Shown here: positions 2,009 through 25,267 of the stretch, in pieces
Numbering within the stretch: the first letter of the stretch is position 1
Layout of the letters: every line of letters starts with the position of its first letter
Origin: Sediminibacterium magnilacihabitans
Lineage (GTDB): Bacteria > Bacteroidota > Bacteroidia > Chitinophagales > Chitinophagaceae
NCBI GenBank assembly: GCA_002973575.1
Contig: PVEQ01000001.1
Span: 124,001 to 188,000, forward strand
DNA length: 64,000 nucleotides
Direction: 5' to 3'
The notes under the pieces: model-generated
The model's database searches: none
The model's input: only the letters and a program-made list of their open reading frames with translations
Told to the model about the DNA's origin: nothing
Position numbers and translations under genes: made by a program

Positions 2009-3280
2009 ATGATAGAAAAAATAGTTTCCTGGTCAATCCGCAACCGGTTCTTTGTTTGGCTCGGGATTATTCTTATTGCCGTAGGCGGGTTTTATTCTAT
2101 CAAAGAAACACCAGTGGATGCATTACCTGACTTATCAGAAAACCAGGTTATCATATTCACAGAATACATGGGCCGCAACCCAAAAATTATGGAAGACCAG
2201 ATAACTTATCCGTTGGTCTCTAACCTTCAGGGAATCCCAAGGATAAAATCAATCCGTGCTGCTTCTATGTTCGGTATGAGCTTCATATTTGTAGTGTTTA
2301 AAGATGATGTAGATATTTATTGGGCAAGAACAAGAGTGCTGGAGCGTCTAAATTATGCTCAAAAATTTTTACCACAGGGAGTCACCCCTTCTCTGGGCCC
2401 TGATGGCACCGGCTTAGGACATGTCTTTTGGTACACTCTTGATGGCAAAGGATACAATTTGGGTGAACTACGGGCTTTACAAGATTGGTACGTAAAGTTC
2501 GCCTTGCAAAATGTGGAAGGTGTAAGTGAAGTAGCGTCTTTTGGTGGTTTTCAAAAACGCTACCAGGTAACCATAGACCCATACAAACTGGTTTACTATG
2601 GAGTGCCGTTGATGGATGTTACCCGTTCTGTGGCTGCTAATAATAAAGATGTCGGAGGGAGTTTATACGAGATGAATGCCACGGGTTATCTCATCCGGGG
2701 ATTAGGATATATCACCAGTCTTGATGATATTAAAGAAATCCCCATCGGAACTTATAAATCCATTCCTGTAAAATTGAGTGATATTGCTGAAGTACAGATG
2801 AGCCCCGACTTAAGGTTGGGCATTGTGGAAGAGAATGGAGAAGGTGAGGTAGTAGGCGGTATTGTGGTGATGCGTTTTGGAGAAAATGCAAAAGATGTGA
2901 TAGAAAGGGCAAAAGCAAGAATGAAGGATATTGAAAAGGGGCTGCCAGCAGGAGTAAAATTCAAAACAGCTTATGACAGGAGTGATTTGATACTCGCTGC
3001 CATAGATACCCTCAAAGAAGCGCTGTGGCAGGAAGTGCTTATAGTTTGTATTGTTGTGCTTCTTTTCCTTTTCAGCGTTAGAAGTAGTCTTGTGGCCATT
3101 ATCTGTATACTTCTCTCCGTGCTTATTGGATTTATACTCATGAAATTTTTTGGTATCACAGCCAATATTCTTTCATTAGGAGGTATAGCCCTTGCTATTG
3201 GCGATGTTGTGGACCCCGGCATTGTGATGGCCGAGAACGCATACAGGCAATTAACCAATCGTATTCTTCAGAATAAATAA
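2009..3280 (+). CDS. cusA: CusA-type RND permease, N-terminal half (split gene)
   Basis: First 423 residues of a heavy-metal RND pump (Cu+/Ag+ out of periplasm or cytoplasm, driven by protons). It has TM1 (residues 13-31), the porter subdomains PN1/PN2 (PVDALPDLSENQVIIFTEYMG start), and TM2-TM4. TM4 reads LALAIGDVVDPGIVMAENAY and keeps the Asp that matches the proton-relay Asp of E. coli CusA. The frame ends with TAA shortly after TM4, in the cytoplasmic TM4-TM5 loop. The rest is encoded by a separate ORF 11 bases later in a different frame. Normal CusA is about 1050 residues in one chain; the two parts here add to 1070, so nothing essential seems lost. A second split copy at 16710-19949 breaks at the same place, arguing against a sequencing error. 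Confidence 0.85.
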   Translation: MIEKIVSWSIRNRFFVWLGIILIAVGGFYSIKETPVDALPDLSENQVIIFTEYMGRNPKIMEDQITYPLVSNLQGIPRIKSIRAASMFGMSFIFVVFKDDVDIYWARTRVLERLNYAQKFLPQGVTPSLGPDGTGLGHVFWYTLDGKGYNLGELRALQDWYVKFALQNVEGVSEVASFGGFQKRYQVTIDPYKLVYYGVPLMDVTRSVAANNKDVGGSLYEMNATGYLIRGLGYITSLDDIKEIPIGTYKSIPVKLSDIAEVQMSPDLRLGIVEENGEGEVVGGIVVMRFGENAKDVIERAKARMKDIEKGLPAGVKFKTAYDRSDLILAAIDTLKEALWQEVLIVCIVVLLFLFSVRSSLVAIICILLSVLIGFILMKFFGITANILSLGGIALAIGDVVDPGIVMAENAYRQLTNRILQNK

Positions 3281-3291
3281 AGCATTCCGGT

Positions 3292-5235
3292 ATGGCAAAG
3301 CAAAAAGAAATAAAAGTAAAGGAACGAATCGGGCATACTAAAGAAATCCCGGAAACAGAAAGAGTGGCAATTATAGAAGAATCGTCACGAACCGTGGGCA
3401 GGTCCGTCTTTTTTTCTGTTATCATCATGATTATTTCCTTTGCGCCAATCCTGTTCCTCACCGGCCAGGAGAAAAAACTTTTTACCCCGCTTGTGCTTAC
3501 TAAAACTTTTTCATTACTGGGAGCAGCCATCCTTGCAGTCACCGTTGCCCCTATGCTCACAAGGACTTTCATGAAGTGCAAACTGATTCCTGAAAGCAGA
3601 AATCCGGTTTCTAATTTTTTTATTACTATTTATCAACCAGTAGCAAGGTGGTGTTTAAAATGGCGCAAAACAGTTTTAGCTATATGCTTTGCAATAATAG
3701 CCGGCAGCGTACCCTTAGTAATTAACCTGGGAACAGAATTTATGCCTCCGCTGGATGAAGGTTCCTTATTGCTAATGCCGGTTACCCTGCCAGATGTTTC
3801 AAATTCAGAAGCCAAACGAATAACCCAGTTGCAGGATAAAATCATTAAAAGCTTTCCTGAAGTGGAAAATGTATTAGGTAAAGCAGGCCGTGCGTACACA
3901 GCTACTGACAATGCGCCAATCAGCATGATTGAAACTATTATAGTGTTGAAACCGAAAAAGCAATGGCGGAAAGGGATGACAAAAGAAAAGCTCATAAAAG
4001 AAATGAATGAAAAAGTGCAGATTCCAGGTGTCGTTGTTGGATGGACACAACCTATCATCAATCGTATCAATATGCTTTCAACCGGTATCCGTACTGATGT
4101 AGGTGTAAAAATCTATGGAAAGAATCTTGATAGCATCTATAACATCGGCCGAAAAGTAGAATCAGCCCTGAAAAACATTCCAGGGTTGGTTGATTTATAT
4201 GTTGAGCAACTTACAGGAGGTAAATATCTGGATATAAAAATCAGGAGACCCGATGCTGCAAGATATGGATTGAACATTGATGATGTGAACATGGTCATAG
4301 AAAGTGCTCTGGGCGGAATGATTTTGACAACGACTGTTGAAGGCAGGGAACGTTTTAATGTAAATCTCCGGCTGGCGCAGGAATACAGGAATGATATTGA
4401 TGAAATCAAAAGAATCCCTATACAAACGATGAAATATGGGGTTATCCCGCTTTCCTCGGTTGCTGATGTAAAAGTAACAGAAGGGCCACCCATGATAAAT
4501 TCTGAAAACGCCATGCTCCGGGGTACAGTACTTTTTAATGTTCGTGGCAGAGATATGGGTGGTGTAGTAAACGATGCAAAGAAAAAGATTGAAGAAACTT
4601 TTAAGCAATTGCCACAAGGTTATTATTTAGACTGGAGTGGACAATATGAAAACCAGGTGAGGGCACAGCAAAGACTGAAGGTTATTATTCCCATTGTGAT
4701 GCTGGTTATTGCTTTTATTCTTTATATCACATTCCATTCCTTTAAAGCTGTACTGATAGTATTTATCAGCATACCTGTTGCGCTTATGGGCGGCGTTTAT
4801 TCGCTTTACTATTATAATGTCAATTTCTCTGTAGCAGTTGCTGTTGGCTTCATTGCACTGTTTGGAGTAGCCGTTGAGACCGGTGTATTGATGATAGCTT
4901 ATTTGAACGATTCAATAAAAAAACTGGTTGAGGCCAAAGGCAATAGTATTCAAAATATAACTAAGGAGGAACTTAAAGAAACATTTTTGTTTGGCGCTAC
5001 ACAGCGTGTACGTCCCTTGCTGATGACGGTTTTAGCCAACATACTAGGCTTGATACCGGTAATGGCTTCTACAGGTACCGGTAGTGATGTAATGAAACCG
5101 ATAGCTATACCGTTTGTTTTTGGTCTCATCACAGCAACCTTGTTTGTATTGATTGTATTACCGGTGATTTATAATCTGATTAAAGAGCGGGAACTTAAAA
5201 AAGGAAAATTGGAAGTACTAACTATTGAGGAATAA
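3292..5235 (+). CDS. cusA: CusA-type RND permease, C-terminal half (split gene)
   Basis: 647 residues carrying TM5 to TM12 and the PC1/PC2 and docking domains. It starts with a charged cytoplasmic segment (ETERVAIIEESSRTVGRSVF) that in intact CusA lies in the TM4-TM5 loop. The three Met residues that form the Cu(I)/Ag(I) path in E. coli CusA have clear counterparts: LLLMPVTLPD, APISMIETI and INMLSTGIRTD. This assigns the pump to monovalent copper/silver. Frame differs from the N-terminal half (start ATG 11 bases after its stop), so two polypeptides are expected unless ribosomes shift. Followed after 17 bases by the outer-membrane partner. The two halves would have to assemble in the membrane, as engineered split transporters can; that is inference. 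Confidence 0.85.
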   Translation: MAKQKEIKVKERIGHTKEIPETERVAIIEESSRTVGRSVFFSVIIMIISFAPILFLTGQEKKLFTPLVLTKTFSLLGAAILAVTVAPMLTRTFMKCKLIPESRNPVSNFFITIYQPVARWCLKWRKTVLAICFAIIAGSVPLVINLGTEFMPPLDEGSLLLMPVTLPDVSNSEAKRITQLQDKIIKSFPEVENVLGKAGRAYTATDNAPISMIETIIVLKPKKQWRKGMTKEKLIKEMNEKVQIPGVVVGWTQPIINRINMLSTGIRTDVGVKIYGKNLDSIYNIGRKVESALKNIPGLVDLYVEQLTGGKYLDIKIRRPDAARYGLNIDDVNMVIESALGGMILTTTVEGRERFNVNLRLAQEYRNDIDEIKRIPIQTMKYGVIPLSSVADVKVTEGPPMINSENAMLRGTVLFNVRGRDMGGVVNDAKKKIEETFKQLPQGYYLDWSGQYENQVRAQQRLKVIIPIVMLVIAFILYITFHSFKAVLIVFISIPVALMGGVYSLYYYNVNFSVAVAVGFIALFGVAVETGVLMIAYLNDSIKKLVEAKGNSIQNITKEELKETFLFGATQRVRPLLMTVLANILGLIPVMASTGTGSDVMKPIAIPFVFGLITATLFVLIVLPVIYNLIKERELKKGKLEVLTIEE

Positions 5236-5252
5236 AATTTAAAAATATACAC

Positions 5253-6512
5253 ATGAAAAGAATACTGACATACAGTTTATTAATGATGATAACAATCGCA
5301 GCGAAAGTAAAAGCACAGGATACTACGAGGTTGGGCATGCAGGATATATTTTCAACCATTGATAAGAATTATCCATTGCTGCAATTGTACGAAGCCAGAA
5401 TTTCCTCTGTACGTTCATTGGTAGAAGGCGCCAAAGCATGGATGCCCCCCACTGTGGCGTTAGCCTTTGACAGGTTTCCCTACCGTCTCTCACTCCTTAA
5501 AGAAATGACCCCCGATAACCAGGCAGGCCTGATGCTGTCAGTTCAGCAGATGATTCCCAACCCGGCAAAACTAAACGCCAAGAAAGATTACATCGCTTCA
5601 TTGGAAAATGTACAACATAACGACTTGGAGTGGCAAAAGAATGTATTGCATTTTACCGCAAGATTATATTATTACCGGCGCTATACAGCAGAGCAAAAAT
5701 TAAAAATCATCAAAGAATACCGTGAGTTGCTCCAAATGCTTATCAAAACAGCAAAAGACAAATATGCTTACAACCAGTCCGACCTTCCAACTATTTTCAA
5801 AGCCGAAGCTTCGTTGAGTGAGTTAGGAAATATGGAAACAATGCTATTCTCTCAAATAGCTGAATCCAATATTGGCCTTAATACATTAATGAGCCGGGAT
5901 GTTAATGCTCCTTTTTTCATTGATACTTTATTAACGCCAAAAGACTACAGCAATGAGTATCTGCTTGCGTTAGACAGCTCACAACTACAACGTAATGATA
6001 TTCTTTCTGTTGAAAGCCGTATCCGCTCCATGAAGATTAATCAAAGATGGGCAGCTACAGGTTCTAAACCCGATTTTGGAATTCAATTTTCTCATGGCCA
6101 AATGTTTGGCATGCCCAAACAATTTTCCATCATGGGTATGATGACAATACCGATTGTACCCTGGTCATCTAAAATGTATAAATCAGAAGTAAAATCAATG
6201 GGATTTGAGATACAGGCTATGCAAAAAGAAAAATCAACCATGCAACTAATGGCTTCACAAATGATACGGGAAAAAATCACCATGCTCATTTATGAAACAA
6301 GGCAGCTTATTAACTATGACAAAAACGTATTGCCTTCATACCAAAAAAACCTGGAGAGCAATCTGCTGGCTTACCGGCAAAATACAGGCAATTTTTTTGT
6401 GTTGCTGGATGCATGGAATATGGTACTTATGAAACAACTGGAAAGAATTGATAAGCTGGGCCAGGTATTTACTGTTCAGTCTGAATACGAATATCAACGG
6501 GAAATTAAATAG
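5253..6512 (+). CDS. cusC: TolC/CusC-family outer-membrane efflux protein
   Basis: 419 residues with an N-terminal signal peptide ending near KVKAQ. The mature part is dominated by long amphipathic helices with the repeated TolC architecture (about residues 30-215 and 235-415), expected to trimerise into an outer-membrane barrel and periplasmic tunnel. It lies between the split cusA and two adaptor genes (gaps of 17 and 2 bases), so it is the exit duct of this Cu/Ag cassette. Pfam-type OEP repeats are divergent, as is usual in Bacteroidota. No lipobox was seen. It may also serve the second Cu/Ag cassette at 16.7-25.3 kb, which has no TolC gene. Confidence 0.8.
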   Translation: MKRILTYSLLMMITIAAKVKAQDTTRLGMQDIFSTIDKNYPLLQLYEARISSVRSLVEGAKAWMPPTVALAFDRFPYRLSLLKEMTPDNQAGLMLSVQQMIPNPAKLNAKKDYIASLENVQHNDLEWQKNVLHFTARLYYYRRYTAEQKLKIIKEYRELLQMLIKTAKDKYAYNQSDLPTIFKAEASLSELGNMETMLFSQIAESNIGLNTLMSRDVNAPFFIDTLLTPKDYSNEYLLALDSSQLQRNDILSVESRIRSMKINQRWAATGSKPDFGIQFSHGQMFGMPKQFSIMGMMTIPIVPWSSKMYKSEVKSMGFEIQAMQKEKSTMQLMASQMIREKITMLIYETRQLINYDKNVLPSYQKNLESNLLAYRQNTGNFFVLLDAWNMVLMKQLERIDKLGQVFTVQSEYEYQREIK

Positions 6513-6541
6513 CAATGTCAAAAAGTATTCACCATATAAAA

Positions 6542-7906
6542 ATGAAAATAGCCAATTATGGGTTATTCCTCCTGACGGCCGGAGTTACTCTTGTGTTTAT
6601 TGCTTGTAATGACAAAGAAGACAAACACAGTGGTCATAACAACAAGATAACAGAAGCTAAAGCGGACAGCAGCATGCAACATGATGCTATGGAGGGGATG
6701 CAGATGAATGATGATAGCAGCAAAAGCATGAACAATATGAGCAGTGATACTGTAAATCATTCATCCCATAATACTATGGATGGCATGAGCATGAATGATA
6801 AAAACAGTATAGCTGATACAGCCGTCAACGAAATATATTGGAATACGATGCCTGCTAACCAAACTGTCATCTCTACTCAAAAAGCGGTTGAGCCGGTTGA
6901 CAGTAATATGAACTATACTTTCAAAGGGAATGGCTATATCAGTTTTGACTTTCGGAGAAGCCGCAAAGTACCGGTACGTATCGGAGGCAGGATTGAAAGG
7001 TTATATGTAAAATACAACTATCAATATATTAGAAAGGGTGAAAAAATCCTGGAATTATACAGCCCCGAAATCAATACTTATATTGAAGAGTTATTATTTC
7101 TAACCCGGCAACCTGCTGACTCGGCGCTTCTGGATAAAGCAAAACAAAAATTATTACTGCTCGGCCTTTCTGCGGCACAAATAAAACAAATTCAAAATTC
7201 CAGCCAGGCCCCTCTTACTATTTCTGTTTATAGCCCTTTTGAAGGATATGTTTTGTTCAATCCTTCGGCAATGGCAGGTATGAGTACAAGTGGCAATAAT
7301 TCTTCAGGCATGGGCGGTATGAATTCAGGAGCCAATGCCGCTCCTTCCGTTACCCCTACTGTCTTGCCTGATAATAGCATTCGTGAAGGTATGTATGTGG
7401 CCAAAGACCAGACATTATTCTGGATAAATGATTTTAAAGAAGTGTGGGGTATTGCAGCATTCACCAAAGAAAACGAAAAATACCTGCGCAATGGACTTCC
7501 AGTAACTGTTACCAGCGAACTGATGCCCGAAAAAACATTTCAAACATCAATCCAGTTCATGGAACAGATATACCAGGGCGGCCAGAAATTCAGCCAGGCA
7601 AGAGTTTATCTCCCTAATACTTCTGGCATATTAAAACAAAATTCATTGATAACAGTCTCATCGTCCATACCTGTAAGGTCATTAATGGTACCGGTCAGCA
7701 GTGTGTATTATCTGGGAAAAATCGCTATTGTATGGGTACGGACTGGAGTAACTAAAGAAGGCAGTAATATATTTCAGTCACGAGTAGTTCGTATAGGGCA
7801 CAGAGATGGTAAAATGGTGCAGATACTGGAGGGTTTAAATACCGGTGAGTTCATTGCAAAGGATGCCGGTTATTTGGCCGATAGTGAAACCATTATTAAA
7901 TATTAA
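6542..7906 (+). CDS. cusB: CusB-type periplasmic adaptor lipoprotein, Met/His-rich N-terminus
   Basis: Membrane-fusion protein linking CusA to CusC. The ATG at 6542 gives a classical lipoprotein signal (MKIANYGLFLLTAG, then FIAC); an in-frame ATG at 6515 only adds nine residues and lies 2 bases after the cusC stop, so it is also possible. Residues about 30-95 are rich in Met, His and Asp (repeats such as EGMQMNDD and DGMSMND), a likely Cu(I) capture tail. Then come barrel-sandwich hybrid (GGRIERLYVKYNYQYIRKG), helical hairpin (LYSPEINTYIEELLFL) and beta-barrel domains. A Gly/Met-rich insert (MAGMSTSGNNSSGMGGMN) interrupts the lipoyl half. Paired with a second adaptor immediately downstream, as in the other Cu/Ag cassette. 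Confidence 0.85.
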   Translation: MKIANYGLFLLTAGVTLVFIACNDKEDKHSGHNNKITEAKADSSMQHDAMEGMQMNDDSSKSMNNMSSDTVNHSSHNTMDGMSMNDKNSIADTAVNEIYWNTMPANQTVISTQKAVEPVDSNMNYTFKGNGYISFDFRRSRKVPVRIGGRIERLYVKYNYQYIRKGEKILELYSPEINTYIEELLFLTRQPADSALLDKAKQKLLLLGLSAAQIKQIQNSSQAPLTISVYSPFEGYVLFNPSAMAGMSTSGNNSSGMGGMNSGANAAPSVTPTVLPDNSIREGMYVAKDQTLFWINDFKEVWGIAAFTKENEKYLRNGLPVTVTSELMPEKTFQTSIQFMEQIYQGGQKFSQARVYLPNTSGILKQNSLITVSSSIPVRSLMVPVSSVYYLGKIAIVWVRTGVTKEGSNIFQSRVVRIGHRDGKMVQILEGLNTGEFIAKDAGYLADSETIIKY

Positions 7907-7916
7907 ATCAGTAGTT

Positions 7917-9053
7917 ATGAAAAATAGATATTGGTTTGTTGCAATGCTGACTATACTGCTGCTGGCAAATGCGTGTACACGAAAAAAAAATGACAACACA
8001 AAGCAAGAGCATGCTGGCCACAGTGTTTCTCAACCTGCCATGAATAACATGGATATGATAACATTGACAGGCCGGGATGAACAATATGCAAATATTACTA
8101 CTGATACAGTAAGACTAAAAGCCATGGCCGAATACACCACTCTGCTGGGCACAACCAGTTTTGATGAACGAAAGGTAACGGTGGTTACGTCTCGTATCAG
8201 GGGAAGGCTTGATAAACTTTTTGTTCGCAATCCACAGGAAATTGTAGGTAAAGACCAGCCACTGTATTCCATTTATAGCGAAGAACTTCTTTCTTACGAA
8301 AATGAATTGCTGAATGCCCTGCAACAGCAACAACAGTTTACCAATATGAAAGAGGTGATGGAGCAGTTAGTTGAAGCGGCGAGGAAAAGGTTATTGTTAT
8401 GGGGGCTTACGGCAGAACAGATAAAGCAGTTGGAAAAAGACCGTGAAGCATCACCACTTGTTACGTTTTACAGCCCGGTATCCGGAACCTTGATTGAGCT
8501 GCCTGTTAGTGAAGGACAGTATGTTGAAACAGGCACTCCATTGTTTCGCCTTGCAGATTTATCTCAACTATGGATAGAAGCACAAATGTACACCAGCGAA
8601 CTGCGCTGGTTATATGAAAAACCTGTTATAACGGTGGAGTTTGACGCTTATCCAAATGAAATTTTCTCTGCTGTACCTGTATTTGATAACCCGACTGTTG
8701 AAGCAGACCAGAAAATCAGCCTTGTAAGATTTCTTGTTGCAGGCCGAAGTCATCAATTGAAGCCGGGAATGATGGCCTATGTCAATATAAAACGGAACGA
8801 AAAGAAAACGGTTGTTATACCTAAGTCTTCAATATTAGTGGGCAATATGATTACCGCATGGATAAAAACCGGCGATGGTACGTATGAGAACCGGATGATT
8901 GAATTGGGAATTCAGAATAAAAGAGAAGTAGAAGTTATTAGCGGATTAAAAGAAGGTGAACTGGTTGTTACAAACGGAGCTTTTTTGTTGAATAGTGCGT
9001 TGATACTAAAGAAAGGCGCTGGCATGCCGGGTATGGAAGGCATGAAGATGTAA
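7917..9053 (+). CDS. cusB: Second CusB-type periplasmic adaptor lipoprotein
   Basis: 378 residues. The upstream in-frame start at 7845 would overlap the previous gene by 62 bases and lacks a signal peptide; the ATG at 7917 gives MKNRYWFVAML and the lipobox LANAC, so it is chosen. Domains in order: lipoyl half with SRIRGRLDKLFVRNPQEIVG, hairpin with YSEELLSYENELLNALQQQQ, second lipoyl half (FYSPVSGTLIELPVSEGQ), beta-barrel and membrane-proximal domain, and a Met-rich end (GMPGMEGMKM). Its hairpin signature YSEEL differs from YSPEI in the preceding adaptor, and the same pair of types recurs at 22622-25267. This suggests a hetero-adaptor ring, as in other tripartite pumps with two adaptor genes; the heteromer is inference. 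Confidence 0.85.
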   Translation: MKNRYWFVAMLTILLLANACTRKKNDNTKQEHAGHSVSQPAMNNMDMITLTGRDEQYANITTDTVRLKAMAEYTTLLGTTSFDERKVTVVTSRIRGRLDKLFVRNPQEIVGKDQPLYSIYSEELLSYENELLNALQQQQQFTNMKEVMEQLVEAARKRLLLWGLTAEQIKQLEKDREASPLVTFYSPVSGTLIELPVSEGQYVETGTPLFRLADLSQLWIEAQMYTSELRWLYEKPVITVEFDAYPNEIFSAVPVFDNPTVEADQKISLVRFLVAGRSHQLKPGMMAYVNIKRNEKKTVVIPKSSILVGNMITAWIKTGDGTYENRMIELGIQNKREVEVISGLKEGELVVTNGAFLLNSALILKKGAGMPGMEGMKM

Positions 9054-14310: not shown

Positions 14311-14880
14311 ATGAAAAAGATTTTAATGTCATTGGCCATTGCAGGCTTATTTGGAGCAACAGCCAATGCACAAAATAATGTAAGCGGAGTGTATCTAAAT
14401 CTTGCTGACTTTGAAAATGGCAAACTTTCCTATGCCAGCAATTCCCCGTCAGGTTCAAGTAAAATTCAGTTCAATGAATTTTTTGAAAAACCTTTTATCA
14501 CTGTTAAACATGATGGCGAAAAAACTCAACTCTTCAAGGATGAAATCTTCGCTTATCAGAACAAGGGTACTGTTGTCCGTACTTCGAATTTCACCAATTA
14601 CACTTTTGTGGAAAAGGGCCCCGTTTGGGTTTTTTATAAGGACATCACCATTGTAAATGGCAAAGAAAGAAGAAGGGAAAGAAAATACTTCTATTCCACT
14701 TCAGGTGATGGCGCCATCCTCCCCTTAACAATAAATAACCTGAAAAAGTCATTTCCCGACAAACATTTATTCCATGACCTTTTAGATGCCCAATTCGGCA
14801 GAGATAGTGAATTGTCATATTATGACAGCTTTGAGAAGAAATTTAAAATAAACCATCTTCTGGAAACAACAGTTCTTTAA
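14311..14880 (+). CDS. Secreted protein of unknown function, 189 aa
   Basis: Signal peptide MKKILMSLAIAGLFGATANA with cleavage before QNN. The mature protein is mainly predicted beta-structure with YLNLADFENGKL at the start, a basic patch (GKERRRERKYF) and a helical C-terminal third (LFHDLLDAQFG). No Cys, no metal motif and no recognised domain. A similar opening (GVYLNxxDF) is common in uncharacterised Bacteroidota exported proteins. It stands alone between hairpin-bounded small genes, 60 bases before the three-repeat metal-binding protein. Function cannot be inferred beyond export. Confidence 0.7.
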   Translation: MKKILMSLAIAGLFGATANAQNNVSGVYLNLADFENGKLSYASNSPSGSSKIQFNEFFEKPFITVKHDGEKTQLFKDEIFAYQNKGTVVRTSNFTNYTFVEKGPVWVFYKDITIVNGKERRRERKYFYSTSGDGAILPLTINNLKKSFPDKHLFHDLLDAQFGRDSELSYYDSFEKKFKINHLLETTVL

Positions 14881-14940: not shown

Positions 14941-15384
14941 ATGAAAAAAATTATCATTCTCCTGGTCTCAGTAACAGCTTCGTTTGCAACATTTGCACAG
15001 GAAAAGGCTGGAAAAAAAGACACTATTACACATGCTATTTTGTACGCCTGTCCAATGCACCCGGATGTAACCAGTGATAAGCCAGGTAAATGTGCAAAGT
15101 GTGGAATGGATTTAACGCTTTCTCCAAAGGAAAGAATGAAAAAGGAAGTGGCAAAAAACTATACATGTCCTGTGCATGCAGATGTACTTGTAAAAAAGCC
15201 GGGTAAGTGCCCTAAATGCGGAAAAGATTTGATACTGTCGCCAAAGGAGAGGATGAAAATGGAAGTGGTAAAAAACTATACTTGCCCGATGCACCCGGAC
15301 GTAGTCAGTGATAAGCCGGGAAAGTGCCCCAAATGTGGAATGGATATGGGTGAAAAGAAGGAAAAGAATCAGAAAAACAGATAG
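14941..15384 (+). CDS. Periplasmic protein made of three heavy-metal-binding domains
   Basis: 147 residues: signal peptide ending TFAQ, then three tandem heavy-metal-binding domains at about residues 36-60, 75-99 and 114-138. Each has the YxCPMHPD...[11 protein letters not shown] pattern with two Cys pairs, a Met and a His; the central copy is altered to YTCPVHADVLVKKPGK and CGKD, so its Met ligands are lost. Linkers SPKERMKKEVAKN and SPKERMKMEVVKN are near identical, showing recent internal duplication. The domain is known from CusB and CopB ATPase N-termini, where it hands over or stores Cu/Ag. Here it is free-standing, so a soluble periplasmic chelator is likely. Confidence 0.85.
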   Translation: MKKIIILLVSVTASFATFAQEKAGKKDTITHAILYACPMHPDVTSDKPGKCAKCGMDLTLSPKERMKKEVAKNYTCPVHADVLVKKPGKCPKCGKDLILSPKERMKMEVVKNYTCPMHPDVVSDKPGKCPKCGMDMGEKKEKNQKNR

Positions 15385-15991: not shown

Positions 15992-16678
15992 ATGAAAAAG
16001 CTGTTGGCCGGGTTTGGGGTAATAACAATTCTTGTTATTACAGCCTGTAATAATAATAAACAAAATAATACGCATGACCATAGTATGAATCATGACTCCA
16101 TGAACCATGATTCAATGCAAATGGATACCATGAAAGGTATGAAACATGAAGGCATGAATCACAGTAAACAAACTGGTTCAATGACTGATATGAATGACGA
16201 CATGAAATCATCAGGCATCTATACCAGTAGCACAGACCCTGTGGTCAGAAAATTCATCAACAATATCATTTCCGAATATCTCTTTATTAAAAATGGATTG
16301 GCAGCTGATGATAAAATGGAGCCAAAAACAGGCGCTGCTAAAATGGCGAGTAGCGTAAGGAAGTTTGATAAGTCTTTTTTCACGGCAAGTCAGAAGAAGG
16401 AATTTGATAAATATGCTGATAACATGAATGACCAATTGCAGGGAATTATTATTGCAAAACAGATTGAAGAACAAAGAGCATTATTTGGTTCATTGTCGCA
16501 GCAGGTGTATGAATTGGTAAAGTTGTTTGGAGCAAATCAAATCTTATACTATGACCATTGCCCGATGGCTTTGAATAATAAAGGTGCCATGTGGCTCAGC
16601 GAAACAAAAGAAATTACAAATCCATATTTAGGGAGCAGTATGTTAACCTGTGGCACTGTACAGGAAATTGTTCAATAA
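15992..16678 (+). CDS. DUF3347 lipoprotein with Met/His-rich N-terminal linker
   Basis: 228 residues from the ATG at 15992, which gives a lipoprotein signal (MKKLLAGFGVITILVITAC); the longer frame from 15899 lacks one. Residues about 30-75 hold repeated MNHDSM and MKGMKHEGMNH units, a likely Cu(I)-binding tail. The rest is the helical DUF3347 domain with the conserved end YDHCPMALNNKGAMWLS, then NPYLGSSMLTCG, whose Cys, His and Met residues are thought to bind copper. DUF3347 also occurs at the end of some Bacteroidota CusB adaptors. It lies 31 bases before the second split cusA and probably delivers metal to that pump. Confidence 0.85.
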   Translation: MKKLLAGFGVITILVITACNNNKQNNTHDHSMNHDSMNHDSMQMDTMKGMKHEGMNHSKQTGSMTDMNDDMKSSGIYTSSTDPVVRKFINNIISEYLFIKNGLAADDKMEPKTGAAKMASSVRKFDKSFFTASQKKEFDKYADNMNDQLQGIIIAKQIEEQRALFGSLSQQVYELVKLFGANQILYYDHCPMALNNKGAMWLSETKEITNPYLGSSMLTCGTVQEIVQ

Positions 16679-16709
16679 TATAAACTCATTCATCAATTAA
16701 TCAGTTGTT

Positions 16710-17990
16710 ATGATAGAGAAATTGATTTCACTTGGGCTTCGTAACCGGTATATTATCCTGCTAATTGCAGGCAGTCTTTTTGTGTGGGGGTTTTTTGCCG
16801 TAAAACAGAACCCTATTGATGCTATACCTGACCTGAGCGAAAATCAGGTAATAGTATTTACAGAATGGATGGGCAGAAGCCCTCAGGTAATGGAAGACCA
16901 GGTTACCTATCCGCTTGTAAGTAACCTGCAAGGCATTCCAAGAGTTAAAAACATCCGTGGCACTTCCATGTTCGGGATGAGTTTCGTCTATGTGATTTTT
17001 GAAGATGATGCCGATGTGTATTGGGCAAGAAGCCGGGTGCTTGAAAAATTGAACTACGCACAACGGTTTCTTCCGCAAGGCATCACACCTACATTGGGCC
17101 CTGACGGAACCGGTGTTGGCCATATATTCTGGTATCATCTTGAAGCGCCTAAAATTGACCTTGGCGAGCAAAGGGCATTACAGGATTGGTATATCAAACT
17201 GGCATTGCAGACTGTTCCCGGTGTATCTGAAGTAGCTTCATTTGGTGGGTTTGAAAAACAATATCAATTAATTATTGACCCTGTAAAACTACAGTACTAT
17301 AATATTTCCATGATGGATGTTATGAATAAAGTAAAAGCCAATAACAATGATGTGGGCGGCAGAAAGTTTGAGATGAGTGATATGGCCTATATCATCCGGG
17401 GTCTTGGCTATGTAAAGAAAAAGGAAGATATAGAAGAGATTGCGCTGAAGAATTACAATGGAATTCCTGTAAGGGTAAAAGATATTGGTACTGTACAGTT
17501 GGGGGGAGATTTACGGCTTGGAATCTTTGATGTAAATGGTGAGGGAGAAGTTGTTGGTGGTATTGTGGTGATGCGCTATGGACAAAATGCAGATAAAGTA
17601 ATACAGGCCATAAAAGCTAAAATGAAAGAAGTGGAAAAGGGCCTGCCCGAAGGGGTCAAGTTTAGAATTTCCTATGACCGAAGCACACTTATTGAAGCGG
17701 CCATTGAAACGATAAAAGAAAAATTGGTAGAAGAAATTATCGTAGTATGTATTGTCGTTATCATTTTTCTTTTCAACTGGCGCAGTGCCCTAAGTATTAT
17801 CATACAGATTCCCATCACCATTGCTATTAGTTTTATTCTGCTTAATGCGTTTGGCCTGTCGTCTAATATCATGTCGTTAACAGGAATTGCACTTGCCATA
17901 GGTGTAATAGTGGATAATGGGATCATCATGTCGGAAAACTCATACCGCAATCTATCAGAATGGCAAAATAATCCTTCACCAGACAAATAA
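16710..17990 (+). CDS. cusA: Second CusA-type RND permease, N-terminal half (split gene)
   Basis: 426 residues with TM1-TM4 and the first porter domains, closely similar to the copy at 2009 (PIDAIPDLSENQVIVFTEWM, FGMSFVYVIFEDDADVYWAR). TM4 is LAIGVIVDNGIIMSENSY and keeps the relay Asp. The chain ends in NLSEWQNNPSPDK and TAA, just where the TM4-TM5 cytoplasmic loop begins. The C-terminal half starts at 17997 in the same frame: only TAA, AAA and AAC lie between. Readthrough or a single-base correction would fuse the halves into about 1079 residues. Because the other copy is split at the equivalent place in a different manner, I treat the split as real. Confidence 0.85.
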   Translation: MIEKLISLGLRNRYIILLIAGSLFVWGFFAVKQNPIDAIPDLSENQVIVFTEWMGRSPQVMEDQVTYPLVSNLQGIPRVKNIRGTSMFGMSFVYVIFEDDADVYWARSRVLEKLNYAQRFLPQGITPTLGPDGTGVGHIFWYHLEAPKIDLGEQRALQDWYIKLALQTVPGVSEVASFGGFEKQYQLIIDPVKLQYYNISMMDVMNKVKANNNDVGGRKFEMSDMAYIIRGLGYVKKKEDIEEIALKNYNGIPVRVKDIGTVQLGGDLRLGIFDVNGEGEVVGGIVVMRYGQNADKVIQAIKAKMKEVEKGLPEGVKFRISYDRSTLIEAAIETIKEKLVEEIIVVCIVVIIFLFNWRSALSIIIQIPITIAISFILLNAFGLSSNIMSLTGIALAIGVIVDNGIIMSENSYRNLSEWQNNPSPDK

Positions 17991-17996
17991 AAAAAC

Positions 17997-19949
17997 ATGA
18001 ATAAAATCAATAAATGGTGGAATAAAATGGTGGGCAGAAGTGATACCTATCGCCCAATACCCCAGGATGTACGCATTCGTATAATTGAAAGCTCCTGTAA
18101 GCAAGTATCAAGAGGCGTATTTTTTTCAACTATAATCATTATCACCTCATTCTTACCGGTATTCATGCTCACAGGCCAGGAAGGAAAACTCTTCCATCCT
18201 CTTGCCTATACAAAGACATTTATAATGGTGGTTGATGCTATTCTTGTAGTAACACTTGCCCCTGTGCTGATATCTTTCTTTATGAAAGGACGTTTCAGGC
18301 CGGAATCTTCTAATCCTATCAACAGAGTTCTTGAAAAAATATATGAGCCACTTATCAGGGGTTGTATCAAATGGCGCAAGACAACTATTGGTATCAATAT
18401 TCTTGCCCTGGCAATAAGTGTACCGCTGATTGTAAGTCTTGGCCGTGAGTTTATGCCGCCGTTGGATGAAGGGTCGCTTTTATTTATGCCGGTAACATTA
18501 CCCGATGTATCAAATTCAGAGGTTAAAAGAATTTTGCAGGTGCAGGATAAAATCATCACTACTGTGCCCGAAGTTGCTCATGTAATGGGTAAAGCAGGAA
18601 GGGCCAATACGGCAACCGATAATTCTCCTATCAGTATGATTGAAACTATCATCTTACTCAAACCCCGAAGTGAATGGAGAAAGGGAATGACGAAAGAAGA
18701 TATAATTAATGAACTCAACAGTAAACTGCAAATACCAGGAGTGACAAATGGATGGACACAGCCCATCATTAACCGCATCAATATGCTTTCTACCGGCATT
18801 CGTACGGACATTGGCTTAAAAGTATATGGCCAGAACCTTGATACGATTTACGCCTTTGCTCAAAAACTGAAGAAAGAGCTTGAAGGTATTGATGGTGTGA
18901 AAGACCTCTATGTAGAACCAATTACCGGCGGAAAGTATATTGATGTAGCTGTGAAAAGGGAGGAAATCGGCCGTTACGGCTTAAGTGTAGATGATGTGAA
19001 TGCCATTGTGGAAAGTGCCCTGGGCGGTATGCGGTTAACAACTACTGTGGAAGGGAGACAGCGTTTTTCGGTAAACGCAAGGTTTGGTCAGGATTTCAGA
19101 AATAATATTACTTCACTCAAACGTCTGCAGGTTCAAACCATGGATTTTGGACCTATCCCACTGGAGGCTGTTGCTGATATTAAATTAAGCGAAGGCCCGC
19201 CGATGATTAACTCTGAAAATGCGATGCTGAGAGGAACAGTGTTGTTTAATGTTAGGGGCAGAGATTTGGGAAGCACAGTAAGTGAAGCAAGAGAAAAACT
19301 GGATAAAATGGTTATACGGTTGCCGAAAGGTTATTTTCTTGAATGGAGTGGTCAGTATGAAAATCTTATCCGTAGCGAAAAAACACTAAAGCTTATTCTG
19401 CCAATTGTGCTGGTAGTAATATTTCTCTCCATGTATTTCGCCTTTCATTCAGCAAGGGAGGCTTTTCTTAGCCTGATTACAGTTCCGTTTGCATTAATCG
19501 GAGGCGCTTACATCATCTATTTCTGGGGTGTGAACTTATCGGTGGCGGTGGCGGTGGGCTTTATTGCATTGTTTGGGTTAGCTGTGGAAACAGGCATTGT
19601 TATGGTAATTTATCTCAATGATGCCATGCAACAACTTGTAGCTAAAAAAGGAAACTCAAGAGAAACGATTACAAGGGACGATTTAAAAGAATATGTAATT
19701 GCTGGCGCTGCAAAAAGGCTTCGTCCAAAGCTGATGACAGTTTGTGTGTCATTGTTTGCATTGATTCCAATACTGTGGAGCCATGGTGTGGGAAGTGATG
19801 TAATGAAGCCTATTGTACTGCCGATGGTTGGTGGTGTACTTACCTCTGCCACACATATATTATTGGTAACGCCATTGATTTTCCTGATGGCAAAAGAATA
19901 TGAGTTAAAAAAATATGGCAAAATAGAAGTGCTGGAAGTTAAACATTAA
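17997..19949 (+). CDS. cusA: Second CusA-type RND permease, C-terminal half (split gene)
   Basis: 650 residues. It opens with a Lys/Asn/Trp-rich segment (MNKINKWWNKMVGRSD), then the loop motif RIRIIESSCKQVSRGVFFS leading to TM5. The Cu(I)/Ag(I) Met triad is conserved: LLFMPVTLPD, SPISMIETI and INMLSTGIRTD. Later TM10-TM12 (VAVGFIALFGLAVETGIVM, RLRPKLMTV) keep the Glu of the proton relay. In frame with the N-terminal half across one stop codon. Followed after 4 bases by a DUF4136 lipoprotein gene. This cassette has no TolC gene of its own before the adaptors at 22622-25267. Confidence 0.85.
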   Translation: MNKINKWWNKMVGRSDTYRPIPQDVRIRIIESSCKQVSRGVFFSTIIIITSFLPVFMLTGQEGKLFHPLAYTKTFIMVVDAILVVTLAPVLISFFMKGRFRPESSNPINRVLEKIYEPLIRGCIKWRKTTIGINILALAISVPLIVSLGREFMPPLDEGSLLFMPVTLPDVSNSEVKRILQVQDKIITTVPEVAHVMGKAGRANTATDNSPISMIETIILLKPRSEWRKGMTKEDIINELNSKLQIPGVTNGWTQPIINRINMLSTGIRTDIGLKVYGQNLDTIYAFAQKLKKELEGIDGVKDLYVEPITGGKYIDVAVKREEIGRYGLSVDDVNAIVESALGGMRLTTTVEGRQRFSVNARFGQDFRNNITSLKRLQVQTMDFGPIPLEAVADIKLSEGPPMINSENAMLRGTVLFNVRGRDLGSTVSEAREKLDKMVIRLPKGYFLEWSGQYENLIRSEKTLKLILPIVLVVIFLSMYFAFHSAREAFLSLITVPFALIGGAYIIYFWGVNLSVAVAVGFIALFGLAVETGIVMVIYLNDAMQQLVAKKGNSRETITRDDLKEYVIAGAAKRLRPKLMTVCVSLFALIPILWSHGVGSDVMKPIVLPMVGGVLTSATHILLVTPLIFLMAKEYELKKYGKIEVLEVKH

Positions 19950-21116: not shown

Positions 21117-22610
21117 ATGAAACGCAGAGATTTTATTAAAAACACTGGCATTGGAGCAGGTAGTGTTCTTACTGCTGGTTCATTTATGAGCCTTTTGGCC
21201 TCATGCAATAAAAATAGCATGATGGGTGGAAATATGAATATGGGTGGTCAACCGGTACCGGTAACAGAAGGAAGCTTCACCAGACTGCTGCCCATTCCAA
21301 ACACTGTAACTGGTACTACGTCTTTGATTGCACAGGCTACCAATACCAATATAAATGGTAACGGCTTTTCAGTCTTAGGCTACCAGTCAGGAGGCATATT
21401 GGGCCCAACTATCCGTGTCAACACTGGCACAAACGCCAATATAAATTTTCAGAATAATCTTTCGGAGAAAAGCAATATCCACTGGCATGGCTTAAAAATT
21501 CCTGATGATATGGACGGACATCCGGAAGCCATTGTAAATTCCGGCAGTAGTTTTAATTATCAGTTTGTCATCAATCAACGGGCTGGATTAAACTGGTATC
21601 ACCCTCATCCGGATGGAGCAACAGCAAGACAGGCTTTCCAGGGATTAGCAGGATTATTTATTGTTAATGACACAGAGGAAGCAGCCCTCAACCTGCCATC
21701 TGGTATTTATGAAGTTCCATTGGTGATTCAGGATAAGAGGCTTACTTCATCTGGCATTGCATACAATCCCACTTCAATGGAAGTAATGACAGGTTATATG
21801 GGTGAAACCATACTGGTAAATGGAGAAGCATCACCATTTACGGAAATAGCAACACGATTTTATCGTTTGCGAATATTGAACGGCTCTAATGCACGGATTT
21901 ATAATCTTGGGCTAAGCAACAATGCTGATTTAATAATTATTGGTAACGATGGAGGCCTGTTAAAAAAACCTGCCACTGTCAAGAGTATTTTATTGTCGCC
22001 GGGTGAGAGATTAGATGTATTGGTAAACTTTTCCGGACTTTCAATAGGCTCTGAAATATTTTTAGAGAACAAAATGTTTGACAATGCTGGAAGTGCCCAG
22101 GGAAAACAAGGGTTTAAGATTCTGAAATTTAAAATAACACAAACAGTAAACGACACTTTCAATGTTCCTGCCAGTCTTTCGTCTATTAATTCAATACCGG
22201 CAACAGCCGCTACCCGAACAAGAAACTTTGTACTGAACGTAATGCAAATGAGCGGCGGCATGAATATGACCGGTATGCACCAAATAAACGGGAAGACGTA
22301 CAACAAAAGCCGCATTGATGAAACCGTGTCGGCTAATGCAACGGAAATATGGGAATTTGACAATTCACAGGGCGATGAACCACATCCTATTCATCTTCAT
22401 GGAGTACACTTCCAGGTACTGGAAAGAACAGGTGGCCGTGGCCAATTGTTAGCCTCTGAAAGCGGTTGGAAAGATACTGTTCTGCTCTTGCCACAGGAAA
22501 AAGTAAAATTGATTATTCCCTTTGCATCCTTAACCGGGGTTTTTGTTTTTCACTGTCACAACCTGGAACACGAAGATGATGGAATGATGCTCCAATATCA
22601 ATTGAATTAA
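21117..22610 (+). CDS. Multicopper oxidase (CueO/CopA-like, TAT-type leader)
   Basis: 497 residues. The leader [20 protein letters not shown] has the twin-arginine form RRDFIK, implying export of a folded cuproenzyme; a Cys at residue 30 (LLASC) may make it a lipoprotein. Copper ligands are all present: [10 protein letters not shown] (about 122-131), WYHPHPDG (about 161-168), PHPIHLHG (about 421-428) and [12 protein letters not shown] (about 479-490) with the axial Met of the type 1 site. A Met/Gly tract ([10 protein letters not shown]) precedes domain 1 and [10 protein letters not shown] lies in domain 3. The enzyme probably oxidises Cu(I) to the less toxic Cu(II). It lies in the second Cu/Ag cassette. 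Confidence 0.93.
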
Positions 22611-22621
22611 CCAATAATTAC

Positions 22622-23995
22622 ATGAAAAGACTATTATTACTAAGCGGCTTTTTTTTGACAATCATCACTGTTTCCTGTAACAACAACAAAGGCCCTCATT
22701 CAGGACATACTACAGATGTTGCAAAGGAAATGTACACCTGCCCCATGCCGGGAGATTCAGTATTCAGTGATAAGCCCGGTAAATGTCCTAAATGCGGAAT
22801 GGGGCTTGTTAAGATGAAGCAAGGTAATCATCAGCACAACGACGGCAATCAAACAGAAGTTTATACCTGCCCCATGCATCCGGAAATCATCCGGGATAAG
22901 CCGGGGAAATGTCCCATTTGTGGTATGGACCTGGTAAAGAAAGGTGGAGCAGTGGATAATTCGTCAGATTTGAATATTGATTTTTTATTACAGCCTACGA
23001 ATGAATATGTTTTATCCTCCATACCCATCACATCACTTCATTCAGCCAATGAAGAAATTGAAGTTGAGGCACTGGGCAAAATAGCTTATGATACAAAACA
23101 GGTGGGAACAATTTCAGCAAGGGTATCTGGCCGTATTGAAAAATTGTATGTACGCTACCGCTATCAGAAAATAACAAGCGGTCAAAAGGTGATGGAAATA
23201 TATAGCCCGGAAATATTAACAGCACAGCAAAATCTTCTGTTTCTCTTAAAGAATGACATTGAAAACACTGTTTTAGTAAATGCTGCTAAAGAAAAGTTAT
23301 TGTTATTGGGCATGAGTCAGGAACAATTAAATGATGTAATAGAAACAAAGAAAGCCGCCTTCACCATTTCTGTGTATAGCAAGTACAGCGGACACATACA
23401 TGAAGCTGGTTCGCAATCTATGCAAAAGGAGCTTGGAGAAATGAGAGATATATCCCTTCTTACCGAGGAATTGCCGTTGAAAGAAGGAATGTACGTTCAG
23501 AAAGGTCAGACGGTTTTTACTGTATATAATCCAAACCGGGCCTGGGCTATTCTTAATTTTTATGCCGATAAGCAAGGCCTCATCCGTCAAGGCAGTCCTG
23601 TACGTATAGTACCGGAAACGGCGCCGGATAAAGATTTCAGAGCAACAATCAATTTCATTGAGCCATTTTATCGCCAGGAAAGCAAGACCGTTACAGCAAG
23701 AGTTTATTTTGATAATTCCATCTTGAAGATTCCTATCGGCAGTCAGGTTAAGGCCACAATTTTCGGAAACAGCCGTGAAGCGAACTGGCTTCCGGTACAA
23801 GCAGTTGTTTCGCTGGGATTGGATAAAGTAGTATTTATAAAAGATGGTATCGGTTTCAAAGCTTACAAAGTAAAAACTGGTATTACTTATAAAAATAGAA
23901 TCCAGGTTTTAGAGGGTTTGTCTGCGCATGATTCTGTTGCAGCAAATGCACAGTTCCTGATGGACAGCGAAAGTTTCATTAAAGTAAACGAATAA
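22622..23995 (+). CDS. cusB: CusB-type adaptor lipoprotein with two heavy-metal-binding domains
   Basis: 457 residues. Lipobox VSC near residue 19, then two heavy-metal-binding domains at about residues 37-64 ([23 protein letters not shown]) and 80-106 ([23 protein letters not shown]). The adaptor core follows: [19 protein letters not shown] (lipoyl), [20 protein letters not shown] (hairpin), [12 protein letters not shown], and a beta-barrel with [19 protein letters not shown]. The hairpin signature YSPEI matches the first adaptor of cassette one. The metal-binding domains could load Cu(I)/Ag(I) into the pump, as the Met-rich N-terminus of E. coli CusB does. It is 3 bases before the next adaptor. 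Confidence 0.9.
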
Positions 23996-23998
23996 ATT

Positions 23999-25267
23999 AT
24001 GAAGAAAGATATTTATACGGCCAGCTTCAATAATTCAATCCCCCTGCAGTGGAAAGAAGTCATTACGCAGTTTGTTGTTTATCTATTGGCAGTTGTTGTT
24101 TTAGGATTATTAGTTAACTCCTGCAAAAGCAAATCAGAAGTATCTAAAGACCCGGATATTTATTACACTTGTTCAATGGACCCACAGGTGGTGGAATACA
24201 AACCAGGTAAGTGCCCCATTTGTAAAATGGAACTGACGCAGGTGCGTAAAAGCAAGAGCGGGAATCCACATGAGATACAGCTAAGTGAAAATCAAATAAA
24301 ACTGGGCAATATCCAGTTAGATACAATCAGTACAGGCAGTATCGGTGACAAAATGTATCTGACCGCTACATTAAATTTTGATTTATACAAATCCAATTCT
24401 GTAAGTTCAAGGGTGCCGGGCAGAATTGAAACGCTATATTTTAAAAACCTCGGTGATTATGTACATAAAGGCGAAAAGCTCTTTGATATTTATAGTGAAG
24501 AACTAAATACAGCCAAACAGGAATACCTGTTGGCCTTGCAACAACAGCAAACTCTTAATAATTCATTGATAGATTACAATGAACTAATTCAAAGTGCAAA
24601 AAATAAATTACTGCTTTGGGGCCTCACAGAAGTACAAATTGATGAGCTTTCAAAAAGCAGAAAAATAAACCCACTCACCTCATTTTACAGTCCTGTTTCA
24701 GGATTTATTACCACATTGGATATTAAAGAAGGTGATTACACAATGGAAGGTGGAACGATTATGCGACTCGCCGATTTATCTACCCTATGGGCAGAGGCAC
24801 AGGTATATACTTCGCAATTGGCTGAACTGGACAAGAGCGGAACGGCCATTGTTCAGATTCCCGATATGCCAGGCAAAGAATTTACCGGCCGGATTGAATA
24901 CTTAAATCCGGAAATCAATCCTGATACAAGAATTAATTTGATACGGGTTGCTATACCCAATACATCTCAGCAATTAAAGCCCGGAATGCCTGCCTATGTT
25001 ATTATTAAAGGTAGTCAACGCAGTACACTAACATTGCCCCTGGATGCTGTTTTGCGTGACGCATTGGGTGCAACTGTATGGGTAAAATCAGGGCAAAATT
25101 CATTTGTAAGCAAAATGGTAGAAACAGGCTTGGAAGCAGAAGGCAGAATTGAAATCAAATCAGGACTGAAACAGGGAGATATTGTAGTAGTTAAAGGAGC
25201 CTACTTGCTGCAAAGCGAATATAAATTTAAGAAGGGAGCTAATCCTATGGAAGGTCACAATATGTAA
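23999..25267 (+). CDS. cusB: CusB-type adaptor with one heavy-metal-binding domain
   Basis: 422 residues. Residues 25-40 form a hydrophobic anchor (FVVYLLAVVVLGLLVNSCK) after a 24-residue polar lead, longer than usual; the NSC could be a lipobox, making this a lipoprotein. One heavy-metal-binding domain follows ([25 protein letters not shown]; about 54-80), with Asp replacing the usual His. The core has SRVPGRIETLYFKNLGDYVH, IYSEELNTAKQEYLLALQQQ and FYSPVSGFITTLDIKEGD, so it is the YSEEL type that pairs with the YSPEI adaptor just upstream. The same order occurs at 6542-9053. Ends the second Cu/Ag operon; the next gene starts 33 bases later and is metabolic. Confidence 0.9.
   Translation: MKKDIYTASFNNSIPLQWKEVITQFVVYLLAVVVLGLLVNSCKSKSEVSKDPDIYYTCSMDPQVVEYKPGKCPICKMELTQVRKSKSGNPHEIQLSENQIKLGNIQLDTISTGSIGDKMYLTATLNFDLYKSNSVSSRVPGRIETLYFKNLGDYVHKGEKLFDIYSEELNTAKQEYLLALQQQQTLNNSLIDYNELIQSAKNKLLLWGLTEVQIDELSKSRKINPLTSFYSPVSGFITTLDIKEGDYTMEGGTIMRLADLSTLWAEAQVYTSQLAELDKSGTAIVQIPDMPGKEFTGRIEYLNPEINPDTRINLIRVAIPNTSQQLKPGMPAYVIIKGSQRSTLTLPLDAVLRDALGATVWVKSGQNSFVSKMVETGLEAEGRIEIKSGLKQGDIVVVKGAYLLQSEYKFKKGANPMEGHNM

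Follow-up and report, generated by a model that had tools for sequence, protein, structure and literature searches.

A CusA-type copper/silver pump encoded by two separate genes in Sediminibacterium magnilacihabitans and many other Bacteroidota

RND pumps are usually treated as single-chain protomers. The closest described relative of the genes analyzed here is CusA of E. coli (HME-RND, TIGR00914; PDB 3k07, 3ne5), which is one polypeptide and was the top match of both our gene products in sequence and in fold. Among other RND systems, each MdtBC subunit is itself a full-length RND protein (MdtB, among the matched chains, has 1040 aa), and NolGHI was first listed as three ORFs. In the available text of PMC8277102, MdtBC is a heterotrimeric pump made, like the split CusA reported here, from two different gene products, and NolGHI, an RND protein with a name that would point to several genes, is cited as a single one. 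Split CusA differs from MdtBC in that each gene product would be part of one protomer, and from NolGHI in that the split is real. We propose, with a probability of about 0.87, that it arose by an ancient fission of a CusA-type copper/silver RND pump, and that the two gene products pair into one pump protomer. The pump is cut in its transmembrane core, in many families of one class, and in some lineages it is swapped in order or re-fused. Split CusA offers nature's own test case for the assembly of membrane proteins from fragments and for the reasons why gene fission persists; as each half is annotated as a permease subunit, pump counts in Bacteroidota may be inflated and some pseudogene calls may be false.

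The window, i.e., the whole stretch of 64,000 nucleotides analyzed, contains two such gene pairs (Table 1). For the second pair a preliminary description had stated that only TAA AAA AAC lies between two in-frame ORFs and that a continuous reading would have 1079 codons; the ORF list and the sequence agree with the former, and the sum 426 + 3 + 650 with the latter. It had also placed the break of the first copy at the equivalent loop with the C-half in another frame, as is indeed the case. The N-half comprises TM1-TM4, the first periplasmic block and the proton-relay Asp equivalent to D405 (codon 17913-17915), and the C-half comprises TM5-TM12, the second periplasmic block, the three-Met Cu/Ag site and the equivalents of E939, K984 and K482. 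The stop in the middle marks a true boundary between two separate genes, as it does in many other Bacteroidota; it is neither a defect nor a signal for readthrough, and as judged from the sequence this boundary lies in the TM4-TM5 loop. Translation of the C-half may begin at Met11 instead of the ATG given in Table 1, and C-half homologues of 640 aa are on record.

Table 1. Positions in the window of the two split CusA pairs and of genes in their surroundings.
Feature	Position	Strand	Remarks
First copy, N-half	2009-3280	+	423 aa
First copy, C-half	3292-5235	+	647 aa; ATG 11 nt past N-half stop; different frame
Outer-membrane channel gene (CusC-like, OEP) after first pair	5253-6512	+	Pfam PF02321
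CusB-like adaptor	6515-7906	+	PF16576
Second CusB-like adaptor	7845-9053 (start tentative)	+	PF16576 on 7920-9050
Heavy-metal-binding-domain (HMBD) protein, upstream of second pair	14941-15384	+	PF19335, three stretches
cusA N-half gene (second pair)	16710-17990	+	426 aa; stop TAA 17988-17990; TIGR00914 1-427, E 1.4e-142
Junction TAA AAA AAC	17988-17996	+	N-half stop and two codons before C-half ATG
cusA C-half gene (second pair)	17997-19949	+	650 aa; ATG 17997-17999; TIGR00914 430-1037, E 4.3e-181
Multicopper oxidase, downstream of second pair	21117-22610	+	PF07731/PF07732/PF00394
CusB-like adaptor with HMBD domains	22622-23995	+	PF16576, PF19335
Second CusB-like adaptor with HMBD domain	23999-25267	+	PF16576, PF19335

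Neither half alone reaches the curated TIGR00914 cut-off of 701.45 (profile scores 476.6 and 604.2), and a genome search reading through stops gives the locus 1064.5. The N-half aligns with E. coli CusA chains over its residues 1-421 and the C-half over its residues 24-629, with identities in the fold alignments of 45-47% and 35-38%, respectively. Where the TIGR00914 family has a single polypeptide of 12 TM helices, the window has two ORFs, and the predicted models, whose confidence is modest (pLDDT 70.8 and 72.9), place TM1-4 in the N-half (helices 13-33, 325-354, 357-380 and 387-420) and TM5-12 in the C-half. CusA entries head the fold matches of both models with an rmsd of 8-13 A, so that these matches confirm the family and not the geometry. 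Like E. coli CusA, the split pump keeps the proton relay and the three-Met site and has copper genes with CusB-like adaptors nearby. Rfam gave zero matches at the gathering threshold over the 64-kb window. A promoter scan of 16500-18300 returned 13 consensus-like sites where shuffled sequence gave 6.1 (sd 2.1), among the 13 an 11-of-12 match within the N-half gene (17275-17303) and a 9-of-12 match spanning the junction (17980-18007); all are consensus matches only, and with such extra sites, one of them inside the N-half, the C-half gene may have transcription of its own.

The distribution of the split was addressed by searching species genomes for similarity to the C-half and fetching the best 80 of 590 loci found. 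The same loop is split in 74 of these 80, one is fused and five have no pair under a 700-nt limit, of which three lie at edges (L084, L095, L103), one has an insert (L086) and one has the swapped order (L094); conservation in related genomes, which had been suggested as a check on the split, is thus high and exceeds chance. In an even class sample of 295 genomes a C-half match was found in 41 (50 matches), every one of which had an equal number of N-half matches; sequence comparison shows the N- and C-halves to be separate genes that are found together. Three of the 50 matches are fused (G200, G122 and G128, by open-frame length, confirmed on fetched DNA). Five class-sample genomes have an N-half match and no C-half match at threshold: in G232 and G250 it sits in a long open frame (1284 and 1065 aa), in G244 the C-half is fragmented over several frames, the sequence of G257 stops inside the N-half and in G277 a contig end cuts the C-half. 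The family sample (117 genomes) gave 43 matches in 39 genomes, and the 28 distinct loci read were 27 split and one fused. In the phylum sample (118 genomes) the ten best matches, including four from the genome that contains the window, are in short frames and all belong to the window's class, while the next nine all belong to a family outside the class (f15), with 53-56% identity and frames of 1031-1055 aa; the four f15 loci that were read (L147-L150) are all fused. These fused proteins share 52-58% identity with the window halves and have the same relay and copper-site residues, and differ in being encoded by a single ORF of about 1050 aa instead of two. The split is thus frequent in the class without being universal, given that the majority of the genomes sampled show no match at the thresholds used. 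Other sources list C-halves of 640-650 aa, at 98-99% identity, as proteins in their own right (P0001, P0002, P0004, P0005 and P0008-P0011, among 120 listed), and a C-half with 60-80% identity is present in twelve plasmid records. In the two of these that were read, complete plasmids of Runella and Adhaeribacter, the halves are annotated as two genes for two permease subunits, and the relative on a Pelobacter plasmid, from beyond the phylum, is fused. The two-gene version of CusA is real, old and widespread; no description of it was found among the matches listed in the open-access literature on split pumps or on the heavy-metal RND pumps of this phylum, a scope outside which most subscription papers fall.

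Among the 123 distinct C-halves of the locus table, 106 belong to splits with the usual gene order, 97 of them as adjacent pairs and nine with an insert of 0.28-1.1 kb. In the adjacent pairs, and ignoring kinship throughout, the N-half stops are TAA (64), TGA (28) and TAG (5), and the frame of the C-half relative to the N-half is 0, 1 or 2 in 12, 37 and 48 cases. Of the 97 pairs, 87 have an ATG between -14 and +12 nt relative to the stop, whereas Met frequency would predict a chance of about 27% per locus, and 21 have ATG-TGA overlaps; of the ten pairs with no near ATG, three have a nearby GTG or TTG instead and most others a more distant ATG. In five related loci (L035, L036, L037, L038 and L041) the ATG is at +10, +11, +12, +11 and +10, respectively, which covers all three frames, so that the frame drifts and the start is kept. 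The earlier suggestion that conservation concerns the break point and not the mechanism therefore holds, as the same loop is split while frame and spacing vary among relatives, and the shared frame of the window pair is a chance of spacing only. The TM4-TM5 loop is cytoplasmic in RND pumps. The 87 C-halves with a near ATG have a head before the conserved block with a median of 20 residues (range 2-28), often longer by eye than the fused loops; the median net charge is +1 (at least +3 in 20 heads) and the first 8 residues include an aromatic one in 58 heads, which is only weakly compatible with a cytoplasmic N-terminus. At locus L184, on the reverse strand, the halves are separated by about 190 bp in which stretches resembling repeats and palindromes were seen by eye.

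Five of the nine inserts contain the gene for a heavy-metal-binding protein (L086, L138, L139, L141 and L142), one contains a methyltransferase gene (L046) and one (L140) encodes a 194-aa protein; no clear gene was seen in L060 and L107/L157. The L140 protein has 34% identity to the product of a window ORF (14311-14880, +), a 189-aa protein with zero Pfam matches, whose relative there lies between CusA halves. In loci L134-L137, which form one clade in the trees, the order is C-OEP-CusB-CusB'-N, complete, with the halves 4.2-5.9 kb apart; L094 and L181 are swapped too, with one half cut by the sequence end. Pfam confirmed the OEP gene and two CusB-like adaptor genes between the swapped halves in all six loci, and in L134 the intervening genes also encode a DUF2231 protein, a heavy-metal-binding protein and one unassigned protein. 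With the C-half first, the N-half last and whole genes between them, neither readthrough nor frameshift can join the halves there.

In a FastTree phylogeny of the N and C proteins the split rows, so far from one class, formed one clade adjoining the fused f15 group, and a quick IQ-TREE tree left the branching order of the two groups undecided. The first FastTree run left out five of the 123 rows (the second copy of L043, and L074, L084, L094 and L095, which are end-cut or lack a complete N-half in the DNA fetched) and included four outgroups. The fused rows L144, L118/L130, L075 and L200 are nested within the split clade, which suggests four or five later re-fusions. An AU test on 50 rows, picked after the first tree was seen and before the addition of L200, rejected a clade of split rows from which the nested fused rows are excluded (p 0.0019), and parsimony on a 134-row tree needs 6 changes, compared with 14 separate fissions were fission irreversible. 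A far homologue in the window (W000_og), with an end branch of 7.37 in the 51-row tree, was excluded from the AU test and the 134-row tree. The long branch L163 at the base of the split clade has a support of 0.32-0.40 in FastTree and an SH-aLRT of 99 in the quick IQ-TREE tree; given this discordance a second independent split, and thus two fissions rather than one, is possible.

In the available text of PMC8092243, mutation of D405, E939 or K984 abolishes metal transport in E. coli CusA, and M573, M623, M672 and E625 are its Cu(I)/Ag(I) subgroup residues. Asp occupies the D405 column, in TM4, in all 110 split N-halves, and among the 110 split C-halves the E939 column has Glu in 103 and Gln in 7, and the K984 column Lys in 104 and another residue in 6. 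All four subgroup residues, which bind copper, as well as K482 and T987, are invariant in the 110 split rows. The transmembrane Met pairs have changed in part: M391, M410 and M1009 are kept in 108-109 of the rows. Unlike in E. coli CusA, M403 is I, V or L in all 110 rows and M501 is I in 88; M486 is L in 74 and M in 35. The relay is complete in the window pair, with D405 on the N-half and E939 and K984 on the C-half, so that a single half should not be able to pump by itself. Purifying selection, as read from dN/dS values of about 0.01-0.03 for both halves in the seven of nine pairs for which it was computable (dS is saturated in many), is acting on both, and N and C distances correlate with an r of 0.857, a value obtained without a control gene. 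We suggest that the two genes, usually adjacent, are probably translationally coupled, and that both half proteins would insert side by side in the membrane and pair via the transmembrane core, with TM4 of the N-half against the C-half helices carrying E939 and K984. One N:C pair would most likely stand in for each CusA protomer, and three pairs for the trimer which, with CusB-like adaptors and a CusC-like channel, would export Cu(I)/Ag(I) on the proton gradient.

Of the two explanations offered in the preliminary description, selection for a two-part pump is supported and regulated readthrough is not. That some full-length CusA is made from the window copy by programmed or regulated readthrough is suggested by its ORFs, in frame and one stop plus two codons apart, and by the in-frame state of 12 of the 97 adjacent pairs and 4 of the 27 split loci of the family sample. 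The in-frame state is however rarer than one third (binomial p 2e-6, kinship ignored), the frame differs between close relatives with the ATG kept at the junction, all three stop codons are used, other genomes have a swapped order or genes inserted between the halves, and the RNA fold around the window stop has no outstanding structure (z 0.08); we regard this explanation as very improbable. As a candidate for programmed readthrough the junction was rejected, with in-frame extension, stop type and downstream signal all lacking conservation.

A pseudogene, in which the stop broke a once intact pump, might be imagined because CusA is a single chain in E. coli, as it is in the closest group from beyond the class, but the split in nearly all fetched relatives, the purifying selection on both halves and the retention of the catalytic residues make it hardly credible. 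That the stop is a sequencing or assembly error is almost certainly wrong: a one-codon change would in principle open the frame, and the single gene cited for NolGHI is a precedent of sorts, but this genome alone has four split loci, two-gene pairs are annotated on complete plasmids, and the near-identical separate C-halves from other sources make the base-call error at 17988-17990 that had been named as a refutation very unlikely. The halves could also be two pumps or have separate functions, e.g., the C-half as a transporter of its own, and their distance in the swapped operons would agree with this. Against it stand their co-occurrence in equal copy number, the division of the proton relay between them (from the residue columns and the available text of PMC8092243) and repeated re-fusion, which is best explained by halves forming one working unit, and we consider it improbable. 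Ancient fission into two pairing gene products is accordingly preferred.

The source genome has four split CusA loci, two of them outside the window (contigs C2 and C9), plus uninterrupted RND pumps. The neighbors of the second pair are copper genes for an HMBD protein, a multicopper oxidase and two CusB-like adaptors. With regard to the adaptor and outer-membrane partners of TIGR00914 pumps, the two CusB-like genes are downstream and an OEP gene follows the first pair; no OEP gene was found beside the second pair among the flanking ORFs scanned by Pfam. The first copy has Leu at K984, M391 and M486 and Thr at M501 and may differ in transport or coupling; given such changes at K984 and the Gln at E939 in seven rows, some pairs may couple differently. 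Cross-assembly of N- and C-halves from the four paralogous loci into mix-and-match metal pumps, as heterohexamers, is an unlikely prospect, though one that, if true, would give an ability beyond any single-chain RND pump. The two different CusB-like adaptors in tandem (22622-25267, +) have a counterpart in the operons of relatives, where the same doubling is seen. Elsewhere in the window, a single ORF of 1457 aa (53740-58110, +) combines a CusA/CzcA-type pump (ACR_tran 5-1030) with an outer-membrane efflux domain (OEP 1269-1452), and contig C2 has a frame of 1479 aa which is similar to it in length.
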